Positions 31,195-44,966 of a stretch of DNA of 64,000 bases are shown here, one piece after another. Origin of the DNA: Yersinia frederiksenii ATCC 33641 (GTDB taxonomy: Bacteria; Pseudomonadota; Gammaproteobacteria; Enterobacterales; Enterobacteriaceae); contig NZ_KN150731.1 in the NCBI RefSeq assembly GCF_000754805.1, positions 1,010,492-1,074,491 of the forward strand, written 5' to 3'. The stretch's first letter is position 1. Each line of letters starts with the position of its first letter. The translations under genes were made by a program, and so were the position numbers. A model generated the notes under the pieces. The model was not told the origin of the DNA. It did not search any database and saw only the letters and a list, made by a program, of their open reading frames with translations.

Positions 31195-32523
31195 CTATTT
31201 TGCGGAGGCTTCGAGAGTAAAAGCTTCTTGAGCAAGGATAGTTTCTGGTTCGATAACTTCTTCTTCAGCACCTATTTTGGCAATACCGTGGCAACCTTCA
31301 CCATAATGTTCACCTTCCCAACGCCCAACCAGTGCCGCACCAATTGCATTGCTCATCACGTTAGTTGCCGAACGGCCCATATCTAAGAAGGGATCTACGC
31401 CCATTAACAGAATTAAACCTGCCTCTGGAATATTAAATTGGCTAAGAGTTGCGGCGATAACCACTAATGATGCACGAGGAACACCAGCCATACCTTTAGA
31501 TGTCAGCATTAGGATTAATAGCATAGTAATTTGTTCGCCCATGCTCAGATGTATATTGCATGCCTGAGCAATAAAGATGACGGCAAATGAACAATATGCC
31601 ATGGAGCCGACCAGGTTGAACGAATAACCAATAGGTAGAACAAAACTGGCAATCTTGTTAGAAACACCAAATTCTTCCAGTTTTTCCAGTGTGCCGGGGA
31701 AGGCAGCTTCGGAACTTGAAGTGGTAAAGGCTAACAGTGCCGGTTCACTAATACCTTTTATTAATCGAAGAGTACAGCGGCCAATCAGCATAATTGAGCA
31801 GCCAATCAAAATTAACCACAGCAATCCCAGAGTGAAATAGAACTCACCCATAAAGATGCCGGCACTGACCAATACCCCCATTCCACGTTCAGAAATCATC
31901 GCTGAGATCGCGGCAAATACGGTCAGTGGAGCAAATAACATGACATAACCGGTAAGCTTCAACATCAGATGTGCCAGTGAATCTAACACATCAACGATAG
32001 GTTGCGCTTTCTCTCCTATTGCGGAAAGACTAATCCCCATAAAAATAGAGAAAACAACAATTTGCAAGATTTCATTGCGTGCCATCGCATCAACAATACT
32101 GGTCGGAATGGCATGCGAAATAAACACTTTAGCGGAGAACGGAACAGGGGCGATACCGTCAACCGCACTGGCGGTTGCTGCCACGAAATTGATGCCATCG
32201 CCCGGTCTTAGGAGGTTAACAACCACCAAACCCAGCAGAATTGAAATGAATGCAGCACAAATAAACAGGAACAGTGTTTTTGAGAAAACACGCCCTAACG
32301 TTTTGGCGTCACCCATTTTGGCAATCCCGACCACTAAGGTTGAGATAATCAATGGTGCGATAATCATTTTGATTAAACGCAGAAAAATATCGGTAAAGAT
32401 GGATATTTCAGATGAGTATGATTTGGCAAAGTCAGGATTGCTAAAGGAATTTATTAAAAACCCGACAATAATACCTATTATCAGACCCAATATGATCATT
32501 GTGGTCAAGTTCTTTGATTTCAT
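31195..32523 (-). CDS. Dicarboxylate/amino-acid:cation symporter (DAACS family)
   Basis: 442 residues, inner membrane, about eight helices and two re-entrant hairpins. Family motifs include LIKMIIAPLIISTLV, the Ser-rich hairpin LAFTTSSSEAAFPGTLE and SFNLVGSMAYCSFAVIFIAQ, then a substrate-site block VDPFLDMGRSATNV. It would take up glutamate, aspartate or a C4/C5 dicarboxylate. Its position after the methylaspartate operon suggests glutamate or a pathway product such as mesaconate. It is separated from the operon by a 153-bp gap containing an inverted repeat, so it may have its own promoter. The exact substrate cannot be read from sequence. Confidence 0.85.
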   Translation of the reverse strand: MKSKNLTTMIILGLIIGIIVGFLINSFSNPDFAKSYSSEISIFTDIFLRLIKMIIAPLIISTLVVGIAKMGDAKTLGRVFSKTLFLFICAAFISILLGLVVVNLLRPGDGINFVAATASAVDGIAPVPFSAKVFISHAIPTSIVDAMARNEILQIVVFSIFMGISLSAIGEKAQPIVDVLDSLAHLMLKLTGYVMLFAPLTVFAAISAMISERGMGVLVSAGIFMGEFYFTLGLLWLILIGCSIMLIGRCTLRLIKGISEPALLAFTTSSSEAAFPGTLEKLEEFGVSNKIASFVLPIGYSFNLVGSMAYCSFAVIFIAQACNIHLSMGEQITMLLILMLTSKGMAGVPRASLVVIAATLSQFNIPEAGLILLMGVDPFLDMGRSATNVMSNAIGAALVGRWEGEHYGEGCHGIAKIGAEEEVIEPETILAQEAFTLEASAK

Positions 32524-32676: not shown

Positions 32677-32994
32677 CTAAATATTGAACTCGAGCTTTAA
32701 TAATGGTGCATGTTGTTGAGCACCATAGACATCCGTATCGCTTACAGCACCTGACACCAGGTGGCGCGGCATGACTATTTTGACCGCATTGGCGGGATCA
32801 AACCAAATAATACGCGAGACCAATTTAGGTTCTATTTTATAAATTTTGGCTATTAATTCCTTCTTGAATTGACCGGATTCTTTTATGCTGGAATAGATAT
32901 CTTTATTCTTGAATAAAATATCCAGTACTAACTCATACGGCCCCGCATTCTTTGATCTGACAACATGAGCCAGTTCTATAATAGATATTTTCAT
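32677..32994 (-). CDS. DUF4387 protein of the methylaspartate operon
   Basis: 105 residues, small and soluble. Visible conserved blocks are ELAHVVRSKNAGPYELVLDILF near the N-terminus (in outline) and IIWFDPANAVKIVMPR near the C-terminus. DUF4387 members usually sit beside an AtuA/DUF1446 gene or are fused to one, and that is the case here: its ATG overlaps the AtuA stop by ATGA. No enzymatic motif is recognisable. It probably acts as a small subunit of the AtuA partner. Last gene of the glutamate mutase operon. Confidence 0.75.
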   Translation of the reverse strand: MKISIIELAHVVRSKNAGPYELVLDILFKNKDIYSSIKESGQFKKELIAKIYKIEPKLVSRIIWFDPANAVKIVMPRHLVSGAVSDTDVYGAQQHAPLLKLEFNI

Positions 32995-34364
32995 GCTGTC
33001 ACTCCTTTTGCAGTTACATTCTCCAGCTTGAACTTAAAGGCAATCTCTGGCGTATATTCCATTAAGTGATAAATGGAAAATTCATAAACCAAACCGGCCC
33101 GAATATCTGATGGTGAGAATGGGAATGCTAAATTACCCGCAGTGGCAATTCGCCCGGTATAACCATAATGAAGTAAGGTCGAGCGCGCGAGCGAGCAAAT
33201 GCTGTCCGCCATGGCTTGAGAGGGGGCGACAACATCAAGCAAAATACCCAATTCATAAGATGTGGTATCTGGCTCTGGCTCCATTTTCCCCATGACACCA
33301 TTCTTGCCATACAAATGAAAATTGAGTTGCACTGCATCAGGCGTGATACTCAGATTTTTCTCTACACTTTTGCGAACTTCGAGCAAGATATTATCAATAT
33401 CCGCAATCATAATGGCGTCTCGGGTGCCAGCAATGCTCAGCGTGCGATAACCCACTGGACGAGCCCCTTCCAACTTCACCGCATAGGGGGTGTTTTCATG
33501 TACTGAGCCGCTGACACGAACCTGGCCATTACCCGCATCCTTAAACTGGCAAGCTGTCAGATTTAATACTCCACCGGGGCCGGGTAAGAAGTAAGGATCT
33601 GATTTTTCATATAATGTATGTGCTGCTGCCGAGGTTTCAGTAAATTGGCGCTTTTCGTTGAAGGTCTTCAAGGTAAAGCCAGTTTCATCCAGAATGCCCA
33701 TGGCACAGTCTGAACCTGACCCCGGTGTTGCGGCAATTGCGGCACACTCCAGAATCTTGCCACAATGCAGTGCCAAACCCTCATCGAATCCCTTCATAAT
33801 AGGTAATGCGGCAAAACAGGCAGGATCATAAGCTCGGCCGCCTAACACGACTTGCGCCCCGGCTTGCAATGCCTCCTGAAAAGGCTCGACCCCCATCTGT
33901 GCCACGATATAAGTGGTTGCATCAATAGCTTCATGGGTGAGTTCAGGCACAAAATCCAGTGACTGAATCTTGCCGGCATCAAGAGCAGCATGGACCACTT
34001 CTTTACTCACGTCGGCTGGGATAACCGCCAGGGTAAAGTCCAGTGATTCCTCTTGGGCAATTTCCAAAATGATCTGACGACACCATTCCAGATGTGGCGC
34101 AGCGCCTGAACCTCCTGCTGTGCCTATAACGACAGGGATACCTTGTTTTACACCTGCCGTTATCATGTAACGCAAATCCCGTTTTACCCCAGCCCGGTCA
34201 GTAAAAGGCTTACCGGAACCCAGATAGTGGGGGCCGGGGTCAGAAGAACCGGCATCAACAGCGATTAAATCGGGTGATTCTTCCATCGCTTTCATAAAGC
34301 TCTCTTCTGGAAACCCATACCCCAGAATGGCTGTCGGCGAGAGGATTTTAAAGGTTTTAGACAT
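32991..34364 (-). CDS. AtuA-family (DUF1446) protein of the methylaspartate operon
   Basis: 457 residues, cytoplasmic, no signal or membrane segment. Similar to PF07287, named after AtuA of acyclic terpene utilisation, whose biochemical role is unsettled. Features: an early AVDAGSSDPGPHYLGSG stretch (about 36-52), a glycine-rich GTAGGSGAAPHLEWC (about 80-95), AQVVLGGRAYDPACFAALP and FLPGPGGVLNLT. Start ATG 34364 overlaps the end of the methylaspartate ammonia-lyase gene region by a one-base gap. It is translationally coupled to DUF4387. Its presence in this operon points to a step after mesaconate, or to a salvage or repair role; this is inference. Confidence 0.75.
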   Translation of the reverse strand: MSKTFKILSPTAILGYGFPEESFMKAMEESPDLIAVDAGSSDPGPHYLGSGKPFTDRAGVKRDLRYMITAGVKQGIPVVIGTAGGSGAAPHLEWCRQIILEIAQEESLDFTLAVIPADVSKEVVHAALDAGKIQSLDFVPELTHEAIDATTYIVAQMGVEPFQEALQAGAQVVLGGRAYDPACFAALPIMKGFDEGLALHCGKILECAAIAATPGSGSDCAMGILDETGFTLKTFNEKRQFTETSAAAHTLYEKSDPYFLPGPGGVLNLTACQFKDAGNGQVRVSGSVHENTPYAVKLEGARPVGYRTLSIAGTRDAIMIADIDNILLEVRKSVEKNLSITPDAVQLNFHLYGKNGVMGKMEPEPDTTSYELGILLDVVAPSQAMADSICSLARSTLLHYGYTGRIATAGNLAFPFSPSDIRAGLVYEFSIYHLMEYTPEIAFKFKLENVTAKGVTA

Positions 34365-34365
34365 A

Positions 34366-35610
34366 TCAATTCGCCTTTGCTTTCAGTTGTGCGATGGTCC
34401 GAGTCATCTCATTAAACACAATGTTCATACCTTCATCGAAGCCCATACCCGGCTTGATGAGCATGCGCATTGGGCGCGAAGCAATAGCAACATGCACACA
34501 GGTGCGGGCGCTGATATCCGTTTCGTTACAGGTTCCGCCTTGATAGGCCTCCATACCTTTTTTATTGCAGTACAGCACAGCATCAACAATGTTGTGGATA
34601 CTGCCCAGATCCGGGGTTTTGATCTGCACCATGTGGCAACTGCGGGCATCAGTAAAATCGATGATATCTTGGTAGGTATTGCACCATTCATCGGCCACGA
34701 TTTTGACGGAGGAACCGAGTTTTTCCAGATTGCGGGTGATTTCGGTCAATAGGCGGATTTGGTCTGGTTTATTACCTGCATCCACCGGCCCTTCGATATA
34801 CAGATCAAGCTCTCCTGCCTGTTCTTGCAAGCTGGCGATATACTCGGCACACCGCATTGGATCCATATCGAAAATCAAACCAATGGTGCCGTAAACATCG
34901 ATATGTAAGTTAGGTTTGTAGTTGGGATCAACCCGCAAATCAGTCACACGTTTAGCCAACCAGCTCACGTAATCACGCAGTTTTTCCCCATTACGCCCCA
35001 GTTTTTCATCAACATTATTGATAAGGCCATGTGGCAGTACGTCGACACCTTTGAGGATCATTTTATCGACCGCGATGTAGCGATCGTCGCCACTTTGTCC
35101 GAACAGTGGGATAGGCTGGGTTACCAGCGGCAGATGCCACTCATCACATACGACTTCCGCCTTTAAGCGGCCAGTGGCTAATGCGCTGGCGTCCAGCAAG
35201 GCTTGGGACAGGCCGTAACGAATGGCGGTGTGCAGCGGTTTGCCATTAATCGTGACTTCATCAAAGAAACGCGCATTTTGACGAAACTCACTAATATCGC
35301 GCCCTTCGAGCAGTGGTTTGATATGTTTTTCCAGGAAAGGAACAAAGTTGGCGGCAATAAACAGAGGGTCACGGCCACCTGCTCCTGAATATTGTACTGC
35401 TGCACAGTCGCCAACGGCGACGGCACCATTTTCTAAAATTAATTGGATATTTACACATTCACCGGCCTGACGAATTGAGGTGAAGCCCTCAGTTACAGGC
35501 TGGCCCTGATAGATAAAACCATCCAATTTAGCGCCGTTTTTTATTGCCTGCTGGTCATCGAAGTAGAAAGATGAATTACCGGCTGTGAACAGGGCTTGTT
35601 TGATTTTCAT
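34366..35610 (-). CDS. mal: Methylaspartate ammonia-lyase
   Basis: 414 residues (family about 413). Enolase-superfamily enzyme that eliminates ammonia from (2S,3S)-3-methylaspartate to give mesaconate; needs Mg2+ and K+. The capping domain is N-terminal (about 1-160), the barrel follows with metal-ligand carboxylates (HIDVYGTIGLIFDMD, DLYIEGPVDAG, VADEWCNT), and the catalytic Lys lies in VQIKTPDLGSIH. The C-terminal GGTCNETDISAR loop is also conserved. Start ATG 35610 shares one base with the mutase E stop and has AGGAAG upstream. Confidence 0.95.
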   Translation of the reverse strand: MKIKQALFTAGNSSFYFDDQQAIKNGAKLDGFIYQGQPVTEGFTSIRQAGECVNIQLILENGAVAVGDCAAVQYSGAGGRDPLFIAANFVPFLEKHIKPLLEGRDISEFRQNARFFDEVTINGKPLHTAIRYGLSQALLDASALATGRLKAEVVCDEWHLPLVTQPIPLFGQSGDDRYIAVDKMILKGVDVLPHGLINNVDEKLGRNGEKLRDYVSWLAKRVTDLRVDPNYKPNLHIDVYGTIGLIFDMDPMRCAEYIASLQEQAGELDLYIEGPVDAGNKPDQIRLLTEITRNLEKLGSSVKIVADEWCNTYQDIIDFTDARSCHMVQIKTPDLGSIHNIVDAVLYCNKKGMEAYQGGTCNETDISARTCVHVAIASRPMRMLIKPGMGFDEGMNIVFNEMTRTIAQLKAKAN

Positions 35611-37055
35611 TATGGTCTTCCTATTAATTTGCTGTGGGATACGGCGTTGATATCGTCAATAATCATTTGGAATGACGGGGTACGGCCTTCTTCTTTGGCT
35701 CGCTCAGCAACAAAATCATGGTGGAGCGCCAAAACATCTTTAGGCAGTGGCACGGAACCGGGATCAAACACGCGGATAGCACCGTGGTTATCACGGATTG
35801 GCATCATCTTGCCGGAGTTGCAGGTTGCGGGTGCAAAAGGCACGTCAAGAACACCGGCTTCAAAGGCTCGAACAGTGCCGATGGCAATATCACCTTGGCC
35901 CAACTCCAGTACTTTGTTCATAACGGCGCGGACTTCACGTTTAATCAGCTCAATTTCGCGGTCAACTTCAACACAAGGCGGGAATTTTTGGTCACGCACC
36001 ATGTTCAGCATTTGGTTTGATGCCCTCAAACCTTGACCATTGGCCTCGGCTGTTGGGATGCCATAGGCTTCATGTGGGCTCTTGGTGATAACTTTGGTTG
36101 CACCGGCCATCCCCGCGACAGCAGCTCCCCAAGAGATAACTGCAAATGCACGAGATTCATCCTCTGGGAAGCCCCCCATCCACTGGTGGAATACGGTACT
36201 AAGTTCATAGTTTTCATAGCCATTGGCATGGAAATATTCATCAGCCAGCTCGCGCAGAGAGCGGATAGCCGCAATATCTTGCACCACATTACCCACCTGG
36301 CCGTAGCCGACGGTGATGGATTTCACGCCCTGTTCCAAAGCCAATAATCCCTCAATAATGGCGACAGCATGGGAAACAAAAGGCGGGATCAACGTGCCGG
36401 TGAGTGGGCCAAATGGTTCGCGATTGATACGAATCCCGTGCTCTTCATATACGCCAATCAAGCGGTCGCAGTATTGCCAATCGCGAATGGATTTCTCTAG
36501 CGTCACACGTTTTGCATAGGGGATGTTGTAAGAAATACCGCCACCTTCATAGCTGGTAAATCCACTGGCCATAGCGATTTCAGCTAATAGGCGGGCATCG
36601 GGTGTGCCGTGACGAATTTGCAGCGGTTTAGATAAAGTTTCGGTAATGCGACGGCAGGCTTTGACGCCATGATTCACTACCGGCAACCCATTGAGTTTTG
36701 ATGTACCTGCTTCGATGGATTTTTGGATGCCAACCGCCGCTTCTTCATAACGATTGAGGCGGGTATAAGCATCGATAGTGGTCGGCAACAGATCGCAATC
36801 TTTTTGGAGTGTTTTTAATAGCTCGATATGTTCTTCAATTAATGCCACTCCCGCACGAGGCTGGCTCAGCGTGATCCCTTGGCGGTCGGCTTCAAACAGG
36901 GCTCGGGCAAAGTTTTTCACCTCAGGAATGGTTTGCTGGTATTTAACACCATCCTCAAAATTCTCAACATCCTTGCCGGTGTGCCAAGTTTTTAACACTT
37001 GAAAGCGCTCGGACATAAAGTCGTCTAAAGATATTTTTTTGTTTCGAAGTTCCAT
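35610..37055 (-). CDS. glmE: Glutamate mutase epsilon subunit (methylaspartate mutase E)
   Basis: 481 residues from ATG 37055 (MELRNKKISLDDF), which aligns with the clostridial GlmE start and has GGAG five bases before it. A GTG at 37073 overlapping the reactivase stop is the alternative. It is the TIM-barrel catalytic subunit that isomerises L-glutamate to (2S,3S)-3-methylaspartate by a radical mechanism with adenosylcobalamin and GlmS. Family blocks are SQPRAGVALIEEHIELL, RHGTPDARLLAEI, EGGGISYNIPYAK, NREPFGPLTGTL and VFHQWMGGFP. Third gene of the coupled operon. Confidence 0.95.
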   Translation of the reverse strand: MELRNKKISLDDFMSERFQVLKTWHTGKDVENFEDGVKYQQTIPEVKNFARALFEADRQGITLSQPRAGVALIEEHIELLKTLQKDCDLLPTTIDAYTRLNRYEEAAVGIQKSIEAGTSKLNGLPVVNHGVKACRRITETLSKPLQIRHGTPDARLLAEIAMASGFTSYEGGGISYNIPYAKRVTLEKSIRDWQYCDRLIGVYEEHGIRINREPFGPLTGTLIPPFVSHAVAIIEGLLALEQGVKSITVGYGQVGNVVQDIAAIRSLRELADEYFHANGYENYELSTVFHQWMGGFPEDESRAFAVISWGAAVAGMAGATKVITKSPHEAYGIPTAEANGQGLRASNQMLNMVRDQKFPPCVEVDREIELIKREVRAVMNKVLELGQGDIAIGTVRAFEAGVLDVPFAPATCNSGKMMPIRDNHGAIRVFDPGSVPLPKDVLALHHDFVAERAKEEGRTPSFQMIIDDINAVSHSKLIGRP

Positions 37056-37069
37056 CATGACTCCAATTT

Positions 37070-38461
37070 TCACTTGTTCAAAATTCGAACGCCAGTCTGG
37101 GCGGCAGCTTTAGGAAAGCGACGAGCGACATTAGCGAGCAGGGGAAGTAAACCTTGTGTATCTTTGTAATACTCAAACTGATTGGGGAGCAGCACTTGCT
37201 TGCCTTTATCATCAAAATCACGATATTTCAGCCAGTTATGGATATCGAATGAATCTGCTCTGGAGAGCCATCCTCCGGTACCAATGACTTTCTTCACCAG
37301 ACTTAAATCACGGCCAAGTTGCAGGTCAACATTGCCAGTACAGGTACAAACTTGTGTTTTGGTACCCGCATGGCGTTCAGAGGCATACCCGACACAAATC
37401 CCCGCCAGCAATTGGTCAAACACGCACTCTTCATCGGTGCGAGGCAAATAGCCTGGATGTGCGGTGATATGTTTTAAATAGGCATGAAAAGCCTCAATTT
37501 TTCCCTGCTGATGGGCGAAATAGTGCTCAATCATTGGCCTACCCGTTTCGCCCGCACTAAGGGCTGAAACGCGCATCCCCAAGTCACCCTCTACGGTGCG
37601 TTTAATCAGTGGTTCAGGGATCCCATGCATGATGGTGTCAGGCATTAAATGATTGTTATAGGAGGAATAAATATCGGTAGTCGCCCCTCCCATATCGATC
37701 AGCATGAATGTTTCCCATTCAGGGACGTGCAGGCGAATTTGCTGGACTAATTCAAAGACCGAATAAGGGGTTGGTAAGGGTTCTTCGCCGGTCTGATTGA
37801 CGATGACGTCTAAACCTTTCCCTTTCACAATTTTGTGCAGGAAAATGTCACAAATAGCTTTACGTGCGCCATAAGGATTAGGGCTGTCGAGGTTTGGCAG
37901 AACATTATCGACGATAGTTAACTCTTTATTACCGAGGATCTCCTGTACATCATCATCCAGGTCACGATTTCCGGCATAAATAATGGCGCATTCAAGGTTC
38001 GATTGAGCCAATAGTTTGGCGTTCAATAAGCCGTGATTGCAGTCGCCGCCATCAGTACCGCCAGTAAAGAGCAGGATATCAGGCGGTGATGCTTCCAAAG
38101 CCCGGACATCAGACTTATTCAAGTTATAAGAGAAATGCTGTGACACTTTGGCCCCGGCAGAGTGCGCGGCAACTTTGGCAGACTCTAGAGTAATATTGGG
38201 CACTAACCCAATGGCTGCAACGGAAAGCCCCCCTTTAGCCGAAGAGGAGTAATCAATCTTGACCTTCCCAGAGGCCAATAATGGTCGTGCATCACTCACA
38301 TTCAGGATCTTATTCAAGACTGAAAAGAATCCATCGGCTAAATGTTGTGGTGTCGTGGGGGATAATGCATAGTTTTTCACTTCAATATGGTCATTATCCC
38401 CGACCTCGAACACTGCTCCTTTGGTCCAGGTGGAGCCAATATCGATAGAAACGCTGATCAT
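37070..38461 (-). CDS. glmL: Glutamate mutase reactivating protein GlmL/MutL
   Basis: 463 residues. Actin-like (ASKHA) ATPase fold with phosphate-1 motif [15 protein letters not shown] at the N-terminus and a phosphate-2 motif [15 protein letters not shown] (about 235-250). A further GTGGWLSR is near the C-terminus. The family is always linked to glutamate mutase and is thought to exchange damaged cobalamin on GlmES. It should not be confused with the mismatch-repair MutL. Overlaps glmS by ATGA and the glmE region by a few bases. Confidence 0.92.
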
Positions 38462-38904
38462 TGCATACCCTCAGCTGTTTCCTCTTTTTGTATGACATGG
38501 TCAATATCGCGTTTCATGAGGGAACAAACTAATTCCAGGTCGGTGTCGGGTGCGAAGACACGGTTGAAACCCATCGCTTTAAATTTAGTTTCAATCTCTG
38601 AAAAATCATGTTTACCAATAACCAGATTTCCGCCGACATAGAGCAATATTTCACCAATGCCGCGTTCAATACAGTGTTCGCGCATGCCGATACAGTCGAC
38701 CTCGCCATGTCCATAAATAGAGGAAATGACAATGACTTGAGCACCCGTTTCAATGGCGGCATCAATATATTCATCTTGACTCACCATCACGCCGAGATTA
38801 ATTACGTTAAAATTGTGCATGGTAAAAATTCGGTCTAGCACTTTATTACCAACAGCATGGCAATCAGCACCAATGACGCCAATAACAATTGTTGGGTTTT
38901 GCAT
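38458..38904 (-). CDS. glmS: Glutamate mutase sigma subunit (B12-binding)
   Basis: 148 residues from ATG 38904 ([14 protein letters not shown]), with GAGGG upstream; ten further upstream codons are open but not conserved. Rossmann-like cobalamin-binding domain with the DxHxxG motif at Asp14-Cys-His16-Ala-Val-Gly19. His16 is the lower axial ligand to cobalt. SSIYGHGE and [11 protein letters not shown] complete the corrin site. First gene of glmS-glmL-glmE-mal-AtuA-DUF4387; all junctions overlap or nearly touch. Confidence 0.95.
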
Positions 38905-39438
38905 GTTAAGCCCTCTATGTAGATTACGTTCCATATATTTTGTTTGGTGGGTGGGTAGTCAAATAAAAAATTTAACTTCCTACGCGAAACTATTTTATTT
39001 CTTAGTGATTTTTATTTTTTAATAACGAGATTTATTCCATCTGGTCAAAAAAATTATAATTTTCTGTTAGGGTTTTCATTGCTGGTTAATGTGCTTCTCC
39101 GATAGGTAAAGTACAATTGATTTATTATCAGGAGGTCTTGATAAAAACTAAAAAGTAAGTTTTTTTAATTCAACCCTTCACTTTATGGTTTTTTTATTCA
39201 ATGAAATCAATCTAATAAAATAAATAATCTCATTTTGTTAAAAAAGTTATATAAATGTTATTTTGGAGTTTAATGATATTTATAGAGAAAGTGTGATCGG
39301 TGTTTGATTATTATTTTATTTCCATATTGTGATGAGATTCATATTTTAATATTGTTACGTGAAATATTAAATCGCCTTTATTCAATCCCAGAGCTACATT
39401 AACCCCTAGAAGGTATAGCGACTCTTTTCTTACTTTGA
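38905..39438. promoter_or_regulatory. AT-rich regulatory gap before glmS, with a CRP-like site
   Basis: 534 bp without a gene. Very AT-rich, which suggests H-NS binding. A CRP-like site TGTGA-N6-TCATA lies at 39328-39343 (nine of ten core bases). An isolated perfect Shine-Dalgarno AGGAGGTC at 39130-39137 on the plus strand precedes only a six-codon frame. No cobalamin riboswitch signature was recognised. The glm operon promoter must lie here, since glmS reads leftward from 38904. Confidence 0.4.
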
Positions 39439-40299
39439 CTAACGTACTCCTCCAGCCACCATCTTGACTAAATGTGTCTGTGGATAATATTTAATGAGCT
39501 GTTTTTGCTGTAGCGTACTGAGAAGGTGCTCAATATCATGTTGTCGATGGTTAAAGAGCAGCCCAATAACGCTGCCGCTATGCGCAACATTCAAGCCATA
39601 TATACCACTGTGTTCGACAAGATCTAATAATTGACGAAACTTAGGCTTCGGTAGCACCGATTCGCTGGCAATAGCACTGAGTGTGGTTGCTTCACCAAGC
39701 CGATGACAACACTGTTTTTCATGCGCTAACTGGAACTGTTGCAGCGCTCTGGCCAAATTGGGCGCTTGTTTCAGCAGTAATGAGTGGCGATTTCGCAAAT
39801 GGAATTCTTCTGTTAACAGTGTCTGTGGGCTCTCCAAGAGTACAATGTCGATATCAGGTAGCCAGGGAAATGAGCGCCGAGTTTGTGCCGTCTGGTGATC
39901 AAAAAGGGTGAGATCTTTAAATATGGTGCTATCTGTGGGTTCAATTGACACACAGAGTTTAGCCAGTGACTCGTCACTCAGTGATTGTCCCAGTAACCGG
40001 GTGGTGGCAATAGCGGCGGCGGCAATATCTGCGGTACTACTGGCCAAGCCTTTTGCCACCGGGATTGTCGATTCAAATTCGATGCAGATATTATTGGCAA
40101 ACAGCGGTGATTGACCAAAATGTATTAAGACTTTTTTAACCATTTGGCGCATTCGTGGTCGCTCATATCGGCCGGGTTTTCCCTGGGTAACCGATACTGT
40201 GCTATACCAACTTATTGGGCAGGAGATAAGCTTTTCCCCGCCCTGGATCCACCCTTGGAGCAATTCACCGCAAGAGGCAGGGCAGTAGGCTTCAGCCAT
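39439..40299 (-). CDS. pduX: L-threonine kinase PduX (GHMP family)
   Basis: 286 residues (Salmonella PduX about 300, with a longer N-terminus). Makes L-threonine-O-3-phosphate, precursor of the aminopropanol linker of cobalamin. The N-terminal CPASCGELLQGW block and the GHMP ATP loop PVAKGLASSTADIAA (about 84-98) match PduX. SIEPTDST and YGLNVAHSGSVIGL near the C-terminus are also shared. In Salmonella it ends the pdu operon; here it follows a uroporphyrinogen methyltransferase by 42 bp and neighbours glutamate mutase. Probably cotranscribed with the methyltransferase. Confidence 0.92.
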   Translation of the reverse strand: MAEAYCPASCGELLQGWIQGGEKLISCPISWYSTVSVTQGKPGRYERPRMRQMVKKVLIHFGQSPLFANNICIEFESTIPVAKGLASSTADIAAAAIATTRLLGQSLSDESLAKLCVSIEPTDSTIFKDLTLFDHQTAQTRRSFPWLPDIDIVLLESPQTLLTEEFHLRNRHSLLLKQAPNLARALQQFQLAHEKQCCHRLGEATTLSAIASESVLPKPKFRQLLDLVEHSGIYGLNVAHSGSVIGLLFNHRQHDIEHLLSTLQQKQLIKYYPQTHLVKMVAGGVR

Positions 40300-40341
40300 T
40301 AGAAGAGTCCTTACAACAAAATTCTTTTTGCTGACAGCACA

Positions 40342-41124
40342 TTATATTGCCTGCAACAGTGGCTCATGATTGATATCGATTGGACGAGGGGTAAAAGCCA
40401 GAGCATCACTAAGATTGACCACGTCTCCAATGACCAGCAGCGCCGGGGCGTGGATATTTTTACGTGCAATTTCATCTTTTAGCGTGCTAAGCGTTCCTTT
40501 GGCCATTTCTTGTTGCTGCTGACTGGCATACATCACTGCAGCGGCAGGTGTATTGGGTGACTTTCCCCCCTTGATTAATCGCTGGCAGATCTCTTCTTGC
40601 CGGCTCATTCCCATTAGCACGATCAGCGTGCCATCTAACTGCGCCAGTGCATTCCAATTCTGCGGTTCATTTCCCTGATACATATGCCCGGTGACGACAT
40701 GAAAACTGGAAGCAAAATGACGGTGTGTGACGGGGATACCCGCGTAGGCAAGCCCACCGATAGAGGAGCTAATACCAGGTACGATTTCAAACAGGATATT
40801 ATGCTGTGAAAGGCATTCAGCTTCTTCTCCTCCACGGCCAAATACATAGGGGTCACCCCCTTTAAGGCGTACGACATTTTTACCGGCTAAAGCGTGATCG
40901 ACTAGAATTTGATTGATATGTTCCTGCGGGACTGGATGATGATTTGAGGTTTTTCCGACATTAATAATTTGGCAATTTGGTGGTGCTTGAGAAATGAGTT
41001 CAAGATTAACTAAACGGTCATGAACGATAACCTGAGCTTCACGGATAGCAAGTAACCCTTTTACGGTGATTAATGATGCATCCCCTGGACCCGCTCCTAC
41101 TAATAACACTTTTCCTATACTCAT
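40342..41124 (-). CDS. cobA: Uroporphyrinogen-III C-methyltransferase
   Basis: 260 residues, stand-alone SUMT without the CysG siroheme domains. Transfers two methyl groups from SAM to uroporphyrinogen III to give precorrin-2, entry to cobalamin and siroheme. Motifs: VGAGPGDASLITVKGL (about 9-24), GDPYVFGRGGEEAE (about 90-103) and VPGISSSIGG. As enterics already have CysG, a separate copy beside pduX and glutamate mutase points to a B12-dedicated supply. Note that cobA is also used for the adenosyltransferase (btuR, here at 44376). First gene of the cobA-pduX pair. Confidence 0.9.
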   Translation of the reverse strand: MSIGKVLLVGAGPGDASLITVKGLLAIREAQVIVHDRLVNLELISQAPPNCQIINVGKTSNHHPVPQEHINQILVDHALAGKNVVRLKGGDPYVFGRGGEEAECLSQHNILFEIVPGISSSIGGLAYAGIPVTHRHFASSFHVVTGHMYQGNEPQNWNALAQLDGTLIVLMGMSRQEEICQRLIKGGKSPNTPAAAVMYASQQQQEMAKGTLSTLKDEIARKNIHAPALLVIGDVVNLSDALAFTPRPIDINHEPLLQAI

Positions 41125-41573: not shown

Positions 41574-42494
41574 ATGCGGTGCAAAATTCCTAAAACAGAC
41601 TTATTAGTTACATTTGAAGCAGTTGCTCAATATGAAAGCTATACACGAGCCGCAGAGAAGCTGGCATTAACGCAAAGTGCTGTTTTCCGCCAGATCACGG
41701 CATTGGAAGAGTTACTTAATGTTTCATTGTTCCATCATGTGCGTAAGCGGATTTTTCTTAATGATGCTGGGCGCTATTATCTTGGTCTAGTGAGAGATAC
41801 ATTGGAGCAATTGGAGAGAGATACGCAGAGTATTATGTCTTATCAGTCGACTCAGCAAGTATTGGAGTTGGCAGTAACACCGACGTTTAGTACACATTGG
41901 CTTATTCCAAATCTTAGTGACTTTCATGAGAATCATCCCGAGATTGTCCTTAATTTAATTGCGCTTACTACACCGACTGATTTCCTGAATCTGAAATATG
42001 ATGCGGCGATTATGCGTGAAGATTTCAGTAGTCCTTGGGCTGAAAATGAGCATCTATTTGAAGAAGAACTGGTACCTGTATGTAGCCGTATGTTGTGGCG
42101 CGATGACAAAAAGGTAATGCGTGCGGAGCAATTAATGGATGAATTTACACTGCTACATCAAACGACTCGTTTAGACTCTTGGTATGATTGGTTTGCACTC
42201 TCGGGAGTGAATAACCCAAAAGTGCGGATGGGGCCACGTTTTGATCTTTTATCAATGTTGATTTCTGCTGTGCGCTCTAATCTTGGGGTCGCATTATTAC
42301 CGCGTTTTGCCATTCATAAAGATTTAGAAAATGGCGATATGGTTATTCCTTGTGATCTTCCGATGAGTACCGGCAACCATTTTGTTCTGACTTACAAAGA
42401 CGGTAAAAGAGGACTGAGGAGCTTGCAAAAATTCAGCCGCTGGGTTCATGGGAAGTCAAAAGAAGAAGAACTGAAAAGGACATGGGTTAACTGA
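41574..42494 (+). CDS. LysR-family regulator of the glutamate-fermentation block
   Basis: 306 residues. N-terminal winged HTH (about 6-65; YTRAAEKLALTQSAVFRQITALEEL) and a C-terminal substrate-binding domain (about 90-295). It belongs to the GcvA-like branch by appearance (RFDLLSMLISAVRSNLGVALLPRFA). The gene sits between the cobA-pduX unit, which it faces away from, and fumarase/btuR. It is the only regulator in the block and so the best candidate to control it. Inducer unknown; glutamate or methylaspartate are guesses. Confidence 0.85.
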   Translation: MRCKIPKTDLLVTFEAVAQYESYTRAAEKLALTQSAVFRQITALEELLNVSLFHHVRKRIFLNDAGRYYLGLVRDTLEQLERDTQSIMSYQSTQQVLELAVTPTFSTHWLIPNLSDFHENHPEIVLNLIALTTPTDFLNLKYDAAIMREDFSSPWAENEHLFEEELVPVCSRMLWRDDKKVMRAEQLMDEFTLLHQTTRLDSWYDWFALSGVNNPKVRMGPRFDLLSMLISAVRSNLGVALLPRFAIHKDLENGDMVIPCDLPMSTGNHFVLTYKDGKRGLRSLQKFSRWVHGKSKEEELKRTWVN

Positions 42495-42708
42495 TTTTCT
42501 AAAATATATATTTTGTGCTTTTATAGAGACTTATTCACCATTAAGCACCATGTGTTGCAGAGAGAACAATTGATTTTTATTTTATCCCATCAATAATGGG
42601 AGCGTAATGCATATGGCATGCAGAAATATAATCCCTTAAACCATTTTAAATATAAATGTTCAGTGAATTCTGCCTGCTATTTACCTTTTGGCTAATAGAG
42701 TGGAAATA

Positions 42709-44355
42709 ATGTATAAGAATGATTTTTTTTACCAAGAACCATTCCCTATTTCTGAAGATGAAACAGATTATTACTTATTAACAAATAAGTATGTCTCTAC
42801 CATTGAAATTGAGGGGAAAGAAATATTAAAAGTTGAACCTGAAGCTCTGACATTGGTATCTCAGCAAGCTTTCCATGATGCTTCATTTTTCCTACGTCCT
42901 GCACATCAACAGCAAGTCGCGGCTATTTTGCATGATCCGCAAGCAAGCGAGAATGACAAATACGTCGCGCTCCAACTATTACGAAATTCAGAAATTTCAG
43001 CTAAAGGTATTTTACCCAACTGCCAGGATACCGGCACATCCACTATTATTGCCAAAAAAGGCCAGCGCGTTTGGACGGATATCGATGATGCTCAAGCATT
43101 ATCCCGTGGTATCTATAATACCTTCCGTGACGATAATTTACGTCATTCGCAAAATGCTGCACTGGACATGTATCACGAAGTGAATACCGGAACGAATCTA
43201 CCAGGACAAATTGATATTTTCTCTACTCCTGGGGCGCAATACTCTTTCTTATTTGTCAATAAAGGGGGCGGTTCAGCGAATAAAGCCGCTCTGTATCAAG
43301 AGACAAAAGCCCTGCTGGAGCCGAAAAAGCTAAAAGTTTTTTTAATTGAGAAAATGAGAGAATTAGGGACAGCCGCATGTCCCCCTTACCATATTGCATT
43401 TGTGATTGGCGGAACGTCGGCTGAATTGACGTTAAAGACGGCGAAACTGGCCTCGGCTAAATATTATGACAACCTGCCAACCGCAGGTAACCAATATGGG
43501 CAAGCTTTCCGTGACATTGAACTGGAGCATGAGTTACTTCAGGCCTCTCGTGAGTTTGGCTTAGGGGCTCAGTTTGGCGGGAAGTATTTTGCTCATGATA
43601 TTCGGGTTATTCGTTTACCGCGCCATGGGGGTTCTTGCCCGATAGGCATGGCTATTTCATGTTCATCAGATCGAAATATTAAAGCCAAAATAAACAAAGA
43701 AGGAATATGGTTAGAGAAATTAGAACGACATCCTGAGCAATATATCCCCGAAAGTATGCGAGTTAACCAAGAAGGGACAGTGGTTAATATCGACCTTAAC
43801 CAACCGATGGATGAGATTCGTCGGCAGCTTTCTCGTTATCCTGTTTCTACCCGAGTATCACTTAATGGCTCATTGATTGTGGCTCGCGATATTGTCCATG
43901 CCAAATTGAAAGAGCGGCTGGAACGGGGGGAGGAATTACCGCAGTACATGAAAGATCACCCAGTCTATTATGCCGGGCCGGCGAAAAAACCAGACGAATT
44001 TATTTCCGGCTCAATGGGACCAACAACAGGGGGACGTATGGATCTGTATGTTGACCTCTTCCAATCTCATGGCGGCAGTTTAGTGATGTTAGCAAAAGGC
44101 AATCGTAGTCAGCAGGTCACGGAAGCCTGTCACAAACATGGTGGCTTCTATTTAGGCAGCATCGGCGGTTCTGCGGCTATTTTGGCGCAAGAATATATCA
44201 AAAGTCTGGAATGTATCGAGTTCCCAGAACTGGGAATGGAAGCGGTATGGAAAATGGACGTTAAGAATTTCCCGGCCTTTATTTTGCTTGATGATAAAGG
44301 TAATTCATTCTTTGACCAGATTCAGATGAAGGCATGTGCTGGCTGTAATCAATAG
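42709..44355 (+). CDS. Class I fumarase, probable mesaconate hydratase (FumD-like)
   Basis: 548 residues from ATG 42709 ([13 protein letters not shown]), the same length as E. coli FumA; the upstream TTG at 42688 adds seven unmatched residues. It is an oxygen-sensitive [4Fe-4S] hydratase. Cluster cysteines lie in [18 protein letters not shown] and [10 protein letters not shown]. coli class I fumarases also hydrate mesaconate, and FumD of E. coli O157:H7 is a reported mesaconase linked to a methylaspartate cluster. In this neighbourhood, hydration of mesaconate to citramalate is the likely role; a general fumarase role cannot be excluded. btuR follows 20 bp downstream. Confidence 0.85.
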
Positions 44356-44375: not shown

Positions 44376-44966
44376 ATGAGCGAAGAAAGGTATCAGCAGC
44401 GGCAACAACATCTTAAAGAACAAGTCGAGGCGCGCGTTGCGGATGCCACCAAAACGGGTGGCATCATCATTGTATTTACAGGCAATGGCAAAGGAAAAAG
44501 TACCGCGGCTTTTGGTACCGCCACAAGAGCTGTCGGCCATGGCATGCAAGTTGGAGTTGTTCAATTTATTAAAGGAACATGGGAAAACGGTGAATATAAC
44601 TTGCTGAGCCGCAATGGGGTTGAATTTCATCTTATGAAGACAGGTTTTACCTGGGACACACAAAACAAAGTGGCAGATACCCTAGCTGCACAGAAAGTAT
44701 GGCAGCAGGGGAGTCGCATGTTATCCGACCCGTCTTACCATCTCGTGATTCTGGATGAATTAACTTATATGGTCACTTACGGCTACTTGGCGCTAGATGA
44801 AGTCATCGCTGCGCTAAAAAGCCGGCCCAAGAACCAAAGTGTCATTATCACCGGGCGTGCATGCCATCGTGACCTCATTGCCTTGGCAGATACAGTTAGC
44901 GAGTTGCGGCCAGTTAAGCATGCTTTTGATGCTGGGGTTAAGGCGCAGAAGGGGATTGATTGGTAA
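44376..44966 (+). CDS. btuR: Cob(I)alamin adenosyltransferase BtuR (CobA/CobO type)
   Basis: 196 residues, same length as E. coli BtuR. Adds the 5'-deoxyadenosyl group from ATP to cob(I)alamin or corrinoids. The reversed P-loop is FTGNGKGKSTAAFGTA (about 35-50), and the C-terminal TVSELRPVKHAFDAGVKAQ is typical. In E. coli btuR lies near trp; here it follows the class I fumarase by 20 bp after a GAGGA ribosome site. It thus supplies adenosylcobalamin beside the glutamate mutase that needs it. Confidence 0.95.
   Translation: MSEERYQQRQQHLKEQVEARVADATKTGGIIIVFTGNGKGKSTAAFGTATRAVGHGMQVGVVQFIKGTWENGEYNLLSRNGVEFHLMKTGFTWDTQNKVADTLAAQKVWQQGSRMLSDPSYHLVILDELTYMVTYGYLALDEVIAALKSRPKNQSVIITGRACHRDLIALADTVSELRPVKHAFDAGVKAQKGIDW

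Follow-up and report, generated by a model that had tools for sequence, protein, structure and literature searches.

A probable citramalate lyase, CmlAB, encoded in the methylaspartate operon of Yersinia frederiksenii

The methylaspartate operon and its AtuA/DUF4387 pair

The window (the whole stretch of DNA analysed here: 64,000 nucleotides of Yersinia frederiksenii ATCC 33641, contig NZ_KN150731.1, positions 1,010,492 to 1,074,491, from a source genome of 4.94 Mb) carries a minus-strand run of methylaspartate pathway genes. Directly after mal lie two genes of the AtuA/DUF1446 and DUF4387 families, and it is these two that concern us: they very probably encode CmlA and CmlB, the subunits of a citramalate lyase. 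The run consists of:

31195..32523, minus strand: dicarboxylate/amino acid:cation symporter, final gene of the run (PF00375, 362 bits)
32677..32994, minus strand: cmlB-like gene (DUF4387), putative citramalate lyase small subunit, 105 amino acids (aa)
32991..34364, minus strand: cmlA-like gene (AtuA/DUF1446), putative citramalate lyase large subunit, 457 aa, with an open reading frame at exactly this position
34366..35610, minus strand: mal, methylaspartate ammonia-lyase (TIGR01502, 547 bits; cut-off 286)
35610..37073, minus strand: glmE, methylaspartate (glutamate) mutase subunit E (TIGR01503, 805 bits; cut-off 390)
37070..38461, minus strand: glmL/mutL, mutase accessory protein (NF040745, 502 bits; cut-off 475)
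38458..38934, minus strand: glmS, B12-binding mutase subunit S (PRK02261, 228 bits; cut-off 110)

On the minus strand the order is glmS, glmL, glmE, mal, AtuA/DUF1446, DUF4387 and, after 153 bases, the symporter. Read directly, mal ends at 34366 and cmlA follows after a single-base gap; the end of cmlA and the start of cmlB share ATGA (32991-32994). An earlier note on this DNA had described this overlap, the one-base spacing and a shared operon, and coordinates together with Pfam and NCBIfam matches confirm it. The large protein matches PF07287 at 76 bits (cut-off 22.8; profile positions 60-389 of 437) and the small one PF14330 at 126 bits (cut-off 27); DUF4387 is the only Pfam match of the small subunit at E<=0.001, and PF23544 (AtuA_ferredoxin) is not among its matches at that threshold. 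The true start of glmS may lie about ten codons downstream of the called one (the PRK02261 match begins at residue 11). The best NCBIfam models for the symporter are DctA and GltP, every one under its cut-off; glutamate uptake is its probable role.

What do the two proteins do? Their closest solved structures are PDB 9erq/9evf, whose depositors named the two proteins citramalate lyase CmlA and CmlB; the window proteins are 78% and 64% identical to these, respectively, from end to end. (The title of 9evf, released 2025-10-08, is "Citramalate lyase - ADP - pyruvate complex".) Residues 1-457 of the large subunit align with 1-456 of the solved CmlA (E 4.7e-242; template modelling score of the predicted model 0.95), and the DUF4387 protein aligns with 9erq_B at E 1.6e-41. 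Three features that go with the assignment are in the window: a full-length large subunit, an adjoining DUF4387 gene, and a pathway for making citramalate (glmSLE, mal and a class I fumarase gene). The pair is accordingly taken, with a probability of about 0.92, to be CmlAB, a citramalate lyase of two subunits that is unrelated in sequence to CitDEF. The basis is end-to-end similarity to the solved CmlAB and gene-neighbourhood evidence, rather than an enzyme assay of the Yersinia protein. The function is thus already named in a public structure; what the window locus adds is evidence on interchangeable citramalate-cleaving systems.

Further genes that bear on the pathway lie beyond the operon:

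39439..40299, minus strand: GHMP kinase (PF00288)
40342..41124, minus strand: cobA/sumT, uroporphyrinogen-III C-methyltransferase, B12 supply (TIGR01469, 305 bits; cut-off 185)
41574..42494, plus strand: LysR-type regulator (PF03466 and PF00126)
42688..44355, plus strand: class I fumarase, FumD-like mesaconase candidate (PF05681 and PF05683)
44376..44966, plus strand: cobO/btuR, cob(I)alamin adenosyltransferase, cofactor supply for glutamate mutase (PF02572)

The cobA/sumT and GHMP kinase genes thus sit between the glm-mal-cml operon and the plus-strand LysR, fumarase and cobO genes; the kinase we take to be PduX-like (an L-threonine kinase of B12 synthesis). B12-linked genes (39439-41124 and 44376-44966) lie, then, near the operon of the B12-dependent glutamate mutase. 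The fumarase scores 966-1008 bits against class I fumarase models, below their cut-offs (1060-1105). That the block encodes the route from glutamate to citramalate, as the earlier note had it, holds for glmS, glmL, glmE and mal; the class I fumarase that is also needed is encoded outside the operon, about 8 kb from the pair and on the opposite strand. Regulation of the cluster by the LysR-type protein is possible, by analogy with the LysR-type transcriptional regulator (LTTR) in the Fig 5 legend of Kronen & Berg 2015 (PMC4682846).

Occupants of the position after mal

An alignment of nine CmlA sequences, used to scan named genomes, yielded 80 loci from many phyla (the best 80 of at least 555 relatives), in which neighbouring genes were sought by tblastn at E 1e-8 or better. 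Many of these contigs are short, so that absences are less certain than presences. CmlB is present in 79 of the 80, the contig of the single exception ending right after CmlA; mal or glmE is present in 68 (mal itself also in 68), an arrangement far beyond chance. Measured between tblastn edges, the distance from mal to the start of CmlA is within 200 bases at 64 of the 68 mal-bearing loci. Class I fumarase is encoded in 38 of the 80 loci, CitF in none, and CitE is represented by one weak match (25%).

Among 5426 complete E. coli genomes, 1084 have cmlAB, 1081 have mal, and 1079 have at least 80% of the ten-kilobase cluster. These counts fit joint inheritance of cmlAB and mal (totals having been compared, not genome lists one by one). 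In one E. coli strain (NZ_CP083585.1, 3259624-3262374) an annotated IS903B transposase lies between two AtuA pieces, and one O127:H6 strain (NZ_LT903847.1, 4109900-4110409) matches the cluster only at its glmS end.

Surveys in the reverse direction started from mal and covered four taxon samples (the window's order, Clostridia, Spirochaetia and Pseudomonadota), with 34 distinct mal genomes. Three of the genomes at the centres of these samples had been chosen because they bear CmlAB, and some other sampled genomes are also among the 80 loci. In the window's order (247 genomes) PF07476 touches 191 genomes, with full-length matches in only two (E <1e-100); the next-best match (2e-7) covers part of the profile, as related enolase-type enzymes would give. 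DUF4387 is found in the same two genomes. The stricter TIGR01502, used for the other samples, finds 12 mal genomes among 216 from the class of Terrisporobacter (Clostridia), 16 among 198 from that of Marispirochaeta (Spirochaetia) and five among 349 Pseudomonadota, the window's genome being one of the five.

The clostridial mal genomes divide cleanly. DUF4387 is found in seven of the 12 and CitF in eight; in all five without DUF4387 the mal cluster includes citD, citE and citF, and no CitF lies in the region surrounding mal in any of the seven that have DUF4387. (In one of the seven the contig breaks inside mal, and DUF4387 is on the contig with the other part of mal.) A split of this kind would arise by chance once in 792 cases, or once in 462 without the centre genome, relatedness being ignored. 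In Spirochaetia DUF4387 stands beside mal in nine of 16 genomes, one more has the start of CmlA beside mal at a contig end, five have mal without CmlAB and with CitF elsewhere, and one is unassigned.

The four other Pseudomonadota mal genomes, all of one genus, have neither DUF4387 nor CitF. In these (L156-L159) mal adjoins genes for a family III coenzyme A (CoA) transferase, a CitE-like CoA-ester lyase and a class I fumarase, a neighbourhood confirmed with Pfam in one of the four (L156), whose lyase belongs to the HpcH/HpaI family and has malyl-CoA lyase and a mitochondrial citrate-lyase-beta-like protein as its nearest PDB entries. The set looks like a third way of cleaving citramalate after mal.

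Taken over the 34 mal genomes, CmlAB is at mal in 19 (one cut off within CmlA), citDEF in five and the CoA transferase with its lyase in four; five have only a distant CitF, and one is unassigned. Leaving out the three centre genomes changes only the first figure (CmlAB 16, citDEF 5, CoA transferase and lyase 4, distant CitF 5, unassigned 1, for a total of 31). The pair and citF occur together in none of the mal neighbourhoods examined. The earlier note would have counted it as a refutation if most genomes with glmE and mal lacked the pair and had a separate citramalate lyase; in the four samples the counts of 19 in 34, and 16 in 31, show that this is not so. The neighbourhood surveys agree with a citramalate lyase role independently of the PDB label. 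The idea that the pair could perform a missing late step is supported: its closest solved structures are deposited as CmlA and CmlB of citramalate lyase, and in the clostridial sample it and citDEF replace each other at mal. At the level of assignment the idea is no longer open. For the companion suggestion, repair of a side product, no support was found.

Citramalate cleavage: pathway, mechanism and alternatives

The enterobacterial cluster is not new. The parts of Kronen & Berg 2015 (PMC4682846) drawn on here identify FumD of E. coli O157:H7 as a mesaconase, already note the DUF1446 gene downstream of mal, name Yersinia enterocolitica among the carriers of the cluster, and leave the fate of citramalate as a question. 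In the pathway proposed here glutamate would be converted to (S)-citramalate by GlmES, Mal and the FumD-like mesaconase, and CmlAB would then split citramalate into pyruvate and acetate.

Several observations weigh against this. The papers searched included none on CmlAB, so that the name of the enzyme rests on its PDB depositors. A citramalyl-CoA lyase elsewhere in the source genome is conceivable, Yersinia pestis having an itaconate ripABC set. A genome-wide search for CitF in 50 of the 80 CmlAB carriers (completeness not stated, many of them metagenome assemblies) found it in 18 and not in 32, and CitF lies elsewhere in three of the seven clostridial and eight of the nine spirochaete mal genomes that have DUF4387; since CitF is present elsewhere in many CmlAB genomes, the mutual exclusion of pair and citF belongs to the mal cluster and not to the whole genome. 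The same parts of Kronen & Berg (PMC4682846) report no citramalate lyase activity in E. coli grown on citrate, acetate or propionate; they also list NADH as the sole nucleotide of the assay mixture, and report finding no condition that made their strain express the glutamate genes or the cluster. As for nucleotides, the ADP in 9evf could be a regulator or a crystallisation ligand, and CmlA has no match to any known ATP-binding fold in the PDB listings.

Could some other enzyme cleave citramalate, either CitCDEF or an undetected citramalyl-CoA lyase route, leaving the pair to repair, regulation or another hydroxy acid? The source genome does have a complete citC-D-E-F set at 4.68 Mb of contig C1 (3.6 Mb from cmlAB along the contig, or about 1.3 Mb if the contig is circular), and the citrate lyase and citramalate lyase of Clostridia are regarded as homologous (PMC4682846, in part). 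The earlier statement that no recognisable citramalate lyase is encoded is accordingly true of the block; elsewhere in the genome stands this distant set, with the look of an ordinary citrate lyase. No citF is found at the mal locus, and the genome-wide search for CitF gives only the gene at C1:4.68 Mb and a weak match, below cut-off, to a CoA transferase. A DpiB-type sensor kinase is encoded beside the set. The CitF of the set reaches 871 bits against the CitF family, compared with 526-642 for the five mal-linked clostridial CitF proteins; this difference suggests that the Yersinia citCDEF is an ordinary citrate lyase. (Of the seven unlinked clostridial CitF proteins, which span 634-757 bits, six reach 706-757 and one stands at 634; sequence might separate a citramalate type of CitF from a citrate type in Clostridia.) Citrate-grown E. 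coli, moreover, had measurable citrate lyase and no measured citramalate lyase (PMC4682846, in the parts cited). CitF is found in ten of the 12 Enterobacterales among the 50 searched CmlAB genomes and not in the other two, Morganella morganii and one more. Cleavage by another enzyme would also leave the citramalate-lyase name of the solved orthologue unexplained, and we regard it as very improbable, on a genome-wide search aimed at CitF and not at a citramalyl-CoA lyase. Just as improbable is a pair that works in reverse, making citramalate from acetate and pyruvate, or acts on an analogue (2-methylmalate isomers), its place after mal serving balance instead of catabolism. The reaction should be near equilibrium, and 12 of the 80 loci (some of them near contig ends) have the pair without mal or glmE; the operon order, the glutamate-type symporter and the mesaconase candidate nonetheless fit the catabolic direction, and in other genomes it is citDEF or the CoA-transferase/lyase set that replaces the pair at mal.

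If CmlAB is a citramalate lyase, how does it work? Cleavage between C2 and C3 would require an activated C4 carboxylate, the future carboxylate of acetate. CitDEF activates this carboxylate through an acyl-carrier-protein thioester and its prosthetic group; a CoA route would achieve the same with CoA. With CmlAB, the C4 carboxylate would receive a phosphate from ATP, pyruvate would be freed by retro-aldol cleavage, and the remaining acetyl phosphate would re-phosphorylate ADP or depart, at zero net cost in ATP. A solved CmlAB structure with ADP and pyruvate makes nucleotide activation more likely for this enzyme, and we offer phosphorylation tentatively, at somewhat less than an even chance. 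Only slightly less favoured is a citramalate lyase that works by direct or metal-assisted retro-aldol cleavage, the crystal ADP being an effector or incidental: besides the missing match to a nucleotide-binding fold, residues kept in 63 or 64 of 64 CmlA family members could hold a metal or carboxylate (D42, R177, D180, E206, E253, K297 and E371; C207 is kept equally). What tells against it is that the depositors' complex holds a nucleotide together with a reaction product, and that release of free acetate without carboxyl activation would be chemically hard. Under either mechanism CmlB probably contributes to the active site, because 12 of its 18 invariant residues cluster in two short stretches, R13-S-K-N-x-x-P and D88-x-Y-G-A-Q-Q-H. 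In the predicted monomer model of each subunit, confidence is among its lowest in some stretches of highest conservation, as would be expected if these become ordered only in the complex.

AtuA relatives and comparison with known systems

The nearest match of the window CmlA in the named-genome collection is that of Yersinia alsatica (98% identical; records of the window's own genome were possibly excluded). In a quick tree of 64 CmlA-family proteins (23 of 61 inner branches poorly supported) it groups with Hafnia, then with other Enterobacterales, within a set of 31 of which 30 have glm-mal; four members placed elsewhere have fumarase and no glm-mal, and more distant relatives sit with transporters, RraA, PrpD or aconitase-type genes. 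Some settings of CmlAB can be listed for themselves. On a Klebsiella pneumoniae plasmid typed as conjugative (L008:9989-18048) CmlAB is accompanied by a class I fumarase and by aldehyde and alcohol dehydrogenases, and on a Neorhizobium plasmid (L009:9992-13201) by a class I fumarase, with no glm-mal in either stretch. In Desulforamulus putei (L071:7066-11689) genes of a tripartite ATP-independent periplasmic (TRAP) transporter, DctP and DctM, lie directly 5' of CmlAB, and the stretch also encodes class I fumarase subunits; the locus looks like one for uptake and use of mesaconate or citramalate. In a marine Gammaproteobacterium (L069:6713-11682), and again in three related loci, CmlAB is beside a FUR-family regulator and a ZnuA/ABC-3 type transporter, neighbours that might hint at a metal requirement.

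The source genome encodes a second AtuA (C1:4586105-4587415, 447 aa). Its operon (L095:6739-12318, or C1 about 4584738-4590317) comprises a CitMHS-type (citrate-type) symporter, AtuA, a PF23544 protein (99 aa, its gene overlapping that of AtuA by ATGA), 3-oxoacid CoA-transferase A and B, a thiolase and a divergent LysR gene; part of this gene order recurs on plasmids of Azospirillum, Roseomonas and Mycetohabitans. With such contents the operon may serve to split 3-hydroxy-3-methylglutarate, or an analogue, into acetate and acetoacetate. AtuA itself has been annotated as an acetate-releasing lyase (PMC4847356); a review, in the part consulted, gives the acetate-releasing step to LiuE instead (PMC4097962).

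Does one chemistry underlie all of these? Release of acetate from a tertiary hydroxy acid would, as a hypothesis, unite CmlAB, AtuA and the second operon: CmlAB would belong, as a branch, to a large class of lyases that release acetate and need no CoA, each with an AtuA-type subunit and a partner of about 100 residues and helped by a nucleotide, with AtuA removing acetate in terpene breakdown and the second operon splitting 3-hydroxy-3-methylglutarate or a close analogue. The large subunits of CmlAB and of AtuA of acyclic terpene utilisation (PF07287) are indeed homologous, their alignments matching with an hhalign probability of 98.5% (E 2.1e-15). The small partner of the AtuA type seen here, by contrast, is PF23544 AtuA_ferredoxin and that of CmlA is DUF4387; profile comparison of the two finds no similarity, and the type that pairs with PF23544 is clearly separate from the CmlA type. 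We think the wider class rather unlikely. If it does exist, a family named after terpene use gains a testable function.

The narrower assignment has its own consequences. For the source genome it supplies a destination for citramalate, the question left from 2015, in enterobacteria with glutamate-fermentation genes, and it gives meaning to genes that carry only AtuA/DUF4387 database labels in roughly one in five complete E. coli genomes (1084/5426). The survey also presents one metabolic slot filled by three systems. The lyase subunits of two of them, CitDEF and the CoA-transferase/lyase set, are related to each other, and CmlAB has none of that kind.

Set beside known systems, the window pair is closest to the CmlAB of 9erq/9evf: both subunits are matched over their full length and share the fold, and the motifs GTAGGSGA, GRAYDPA, ATPGSGSD and LPGPGG are identical in the alignment of the large subunits, although the solved CmlA is nearer to that of E. 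coli (972 bits) than to that of the window (807 bits). The published enterobacterial cluster (PMC4682846, as given in its Fig 5 legend) has its counterparts in the window (glmS, mutL, glmE, mal, DUF1446, a gltP-like gene, fumD, a cobA-type adenosyltransferase and LysR), the mesaconase role of the window fumarase being that of a candidate; the window differs in having fumD and cobO on the opposite strand, split from the operon by cobA/sumT, the GHMP kinase and the LysR gene. The five spirochaete genomes with mal, no CmlAB and a distant CitF resemble the arrangement of Treponema denticola described in the same source, as far as it is cited here. The CitDEF-type citramalate lyase of Clostridia, finally, occupies the same position in the mal cluster as CmlAB and, by its published role (PMC4682846, in part), catalyses the same overall reaction, with proteins for which no sequence relation to CmlAB was found.
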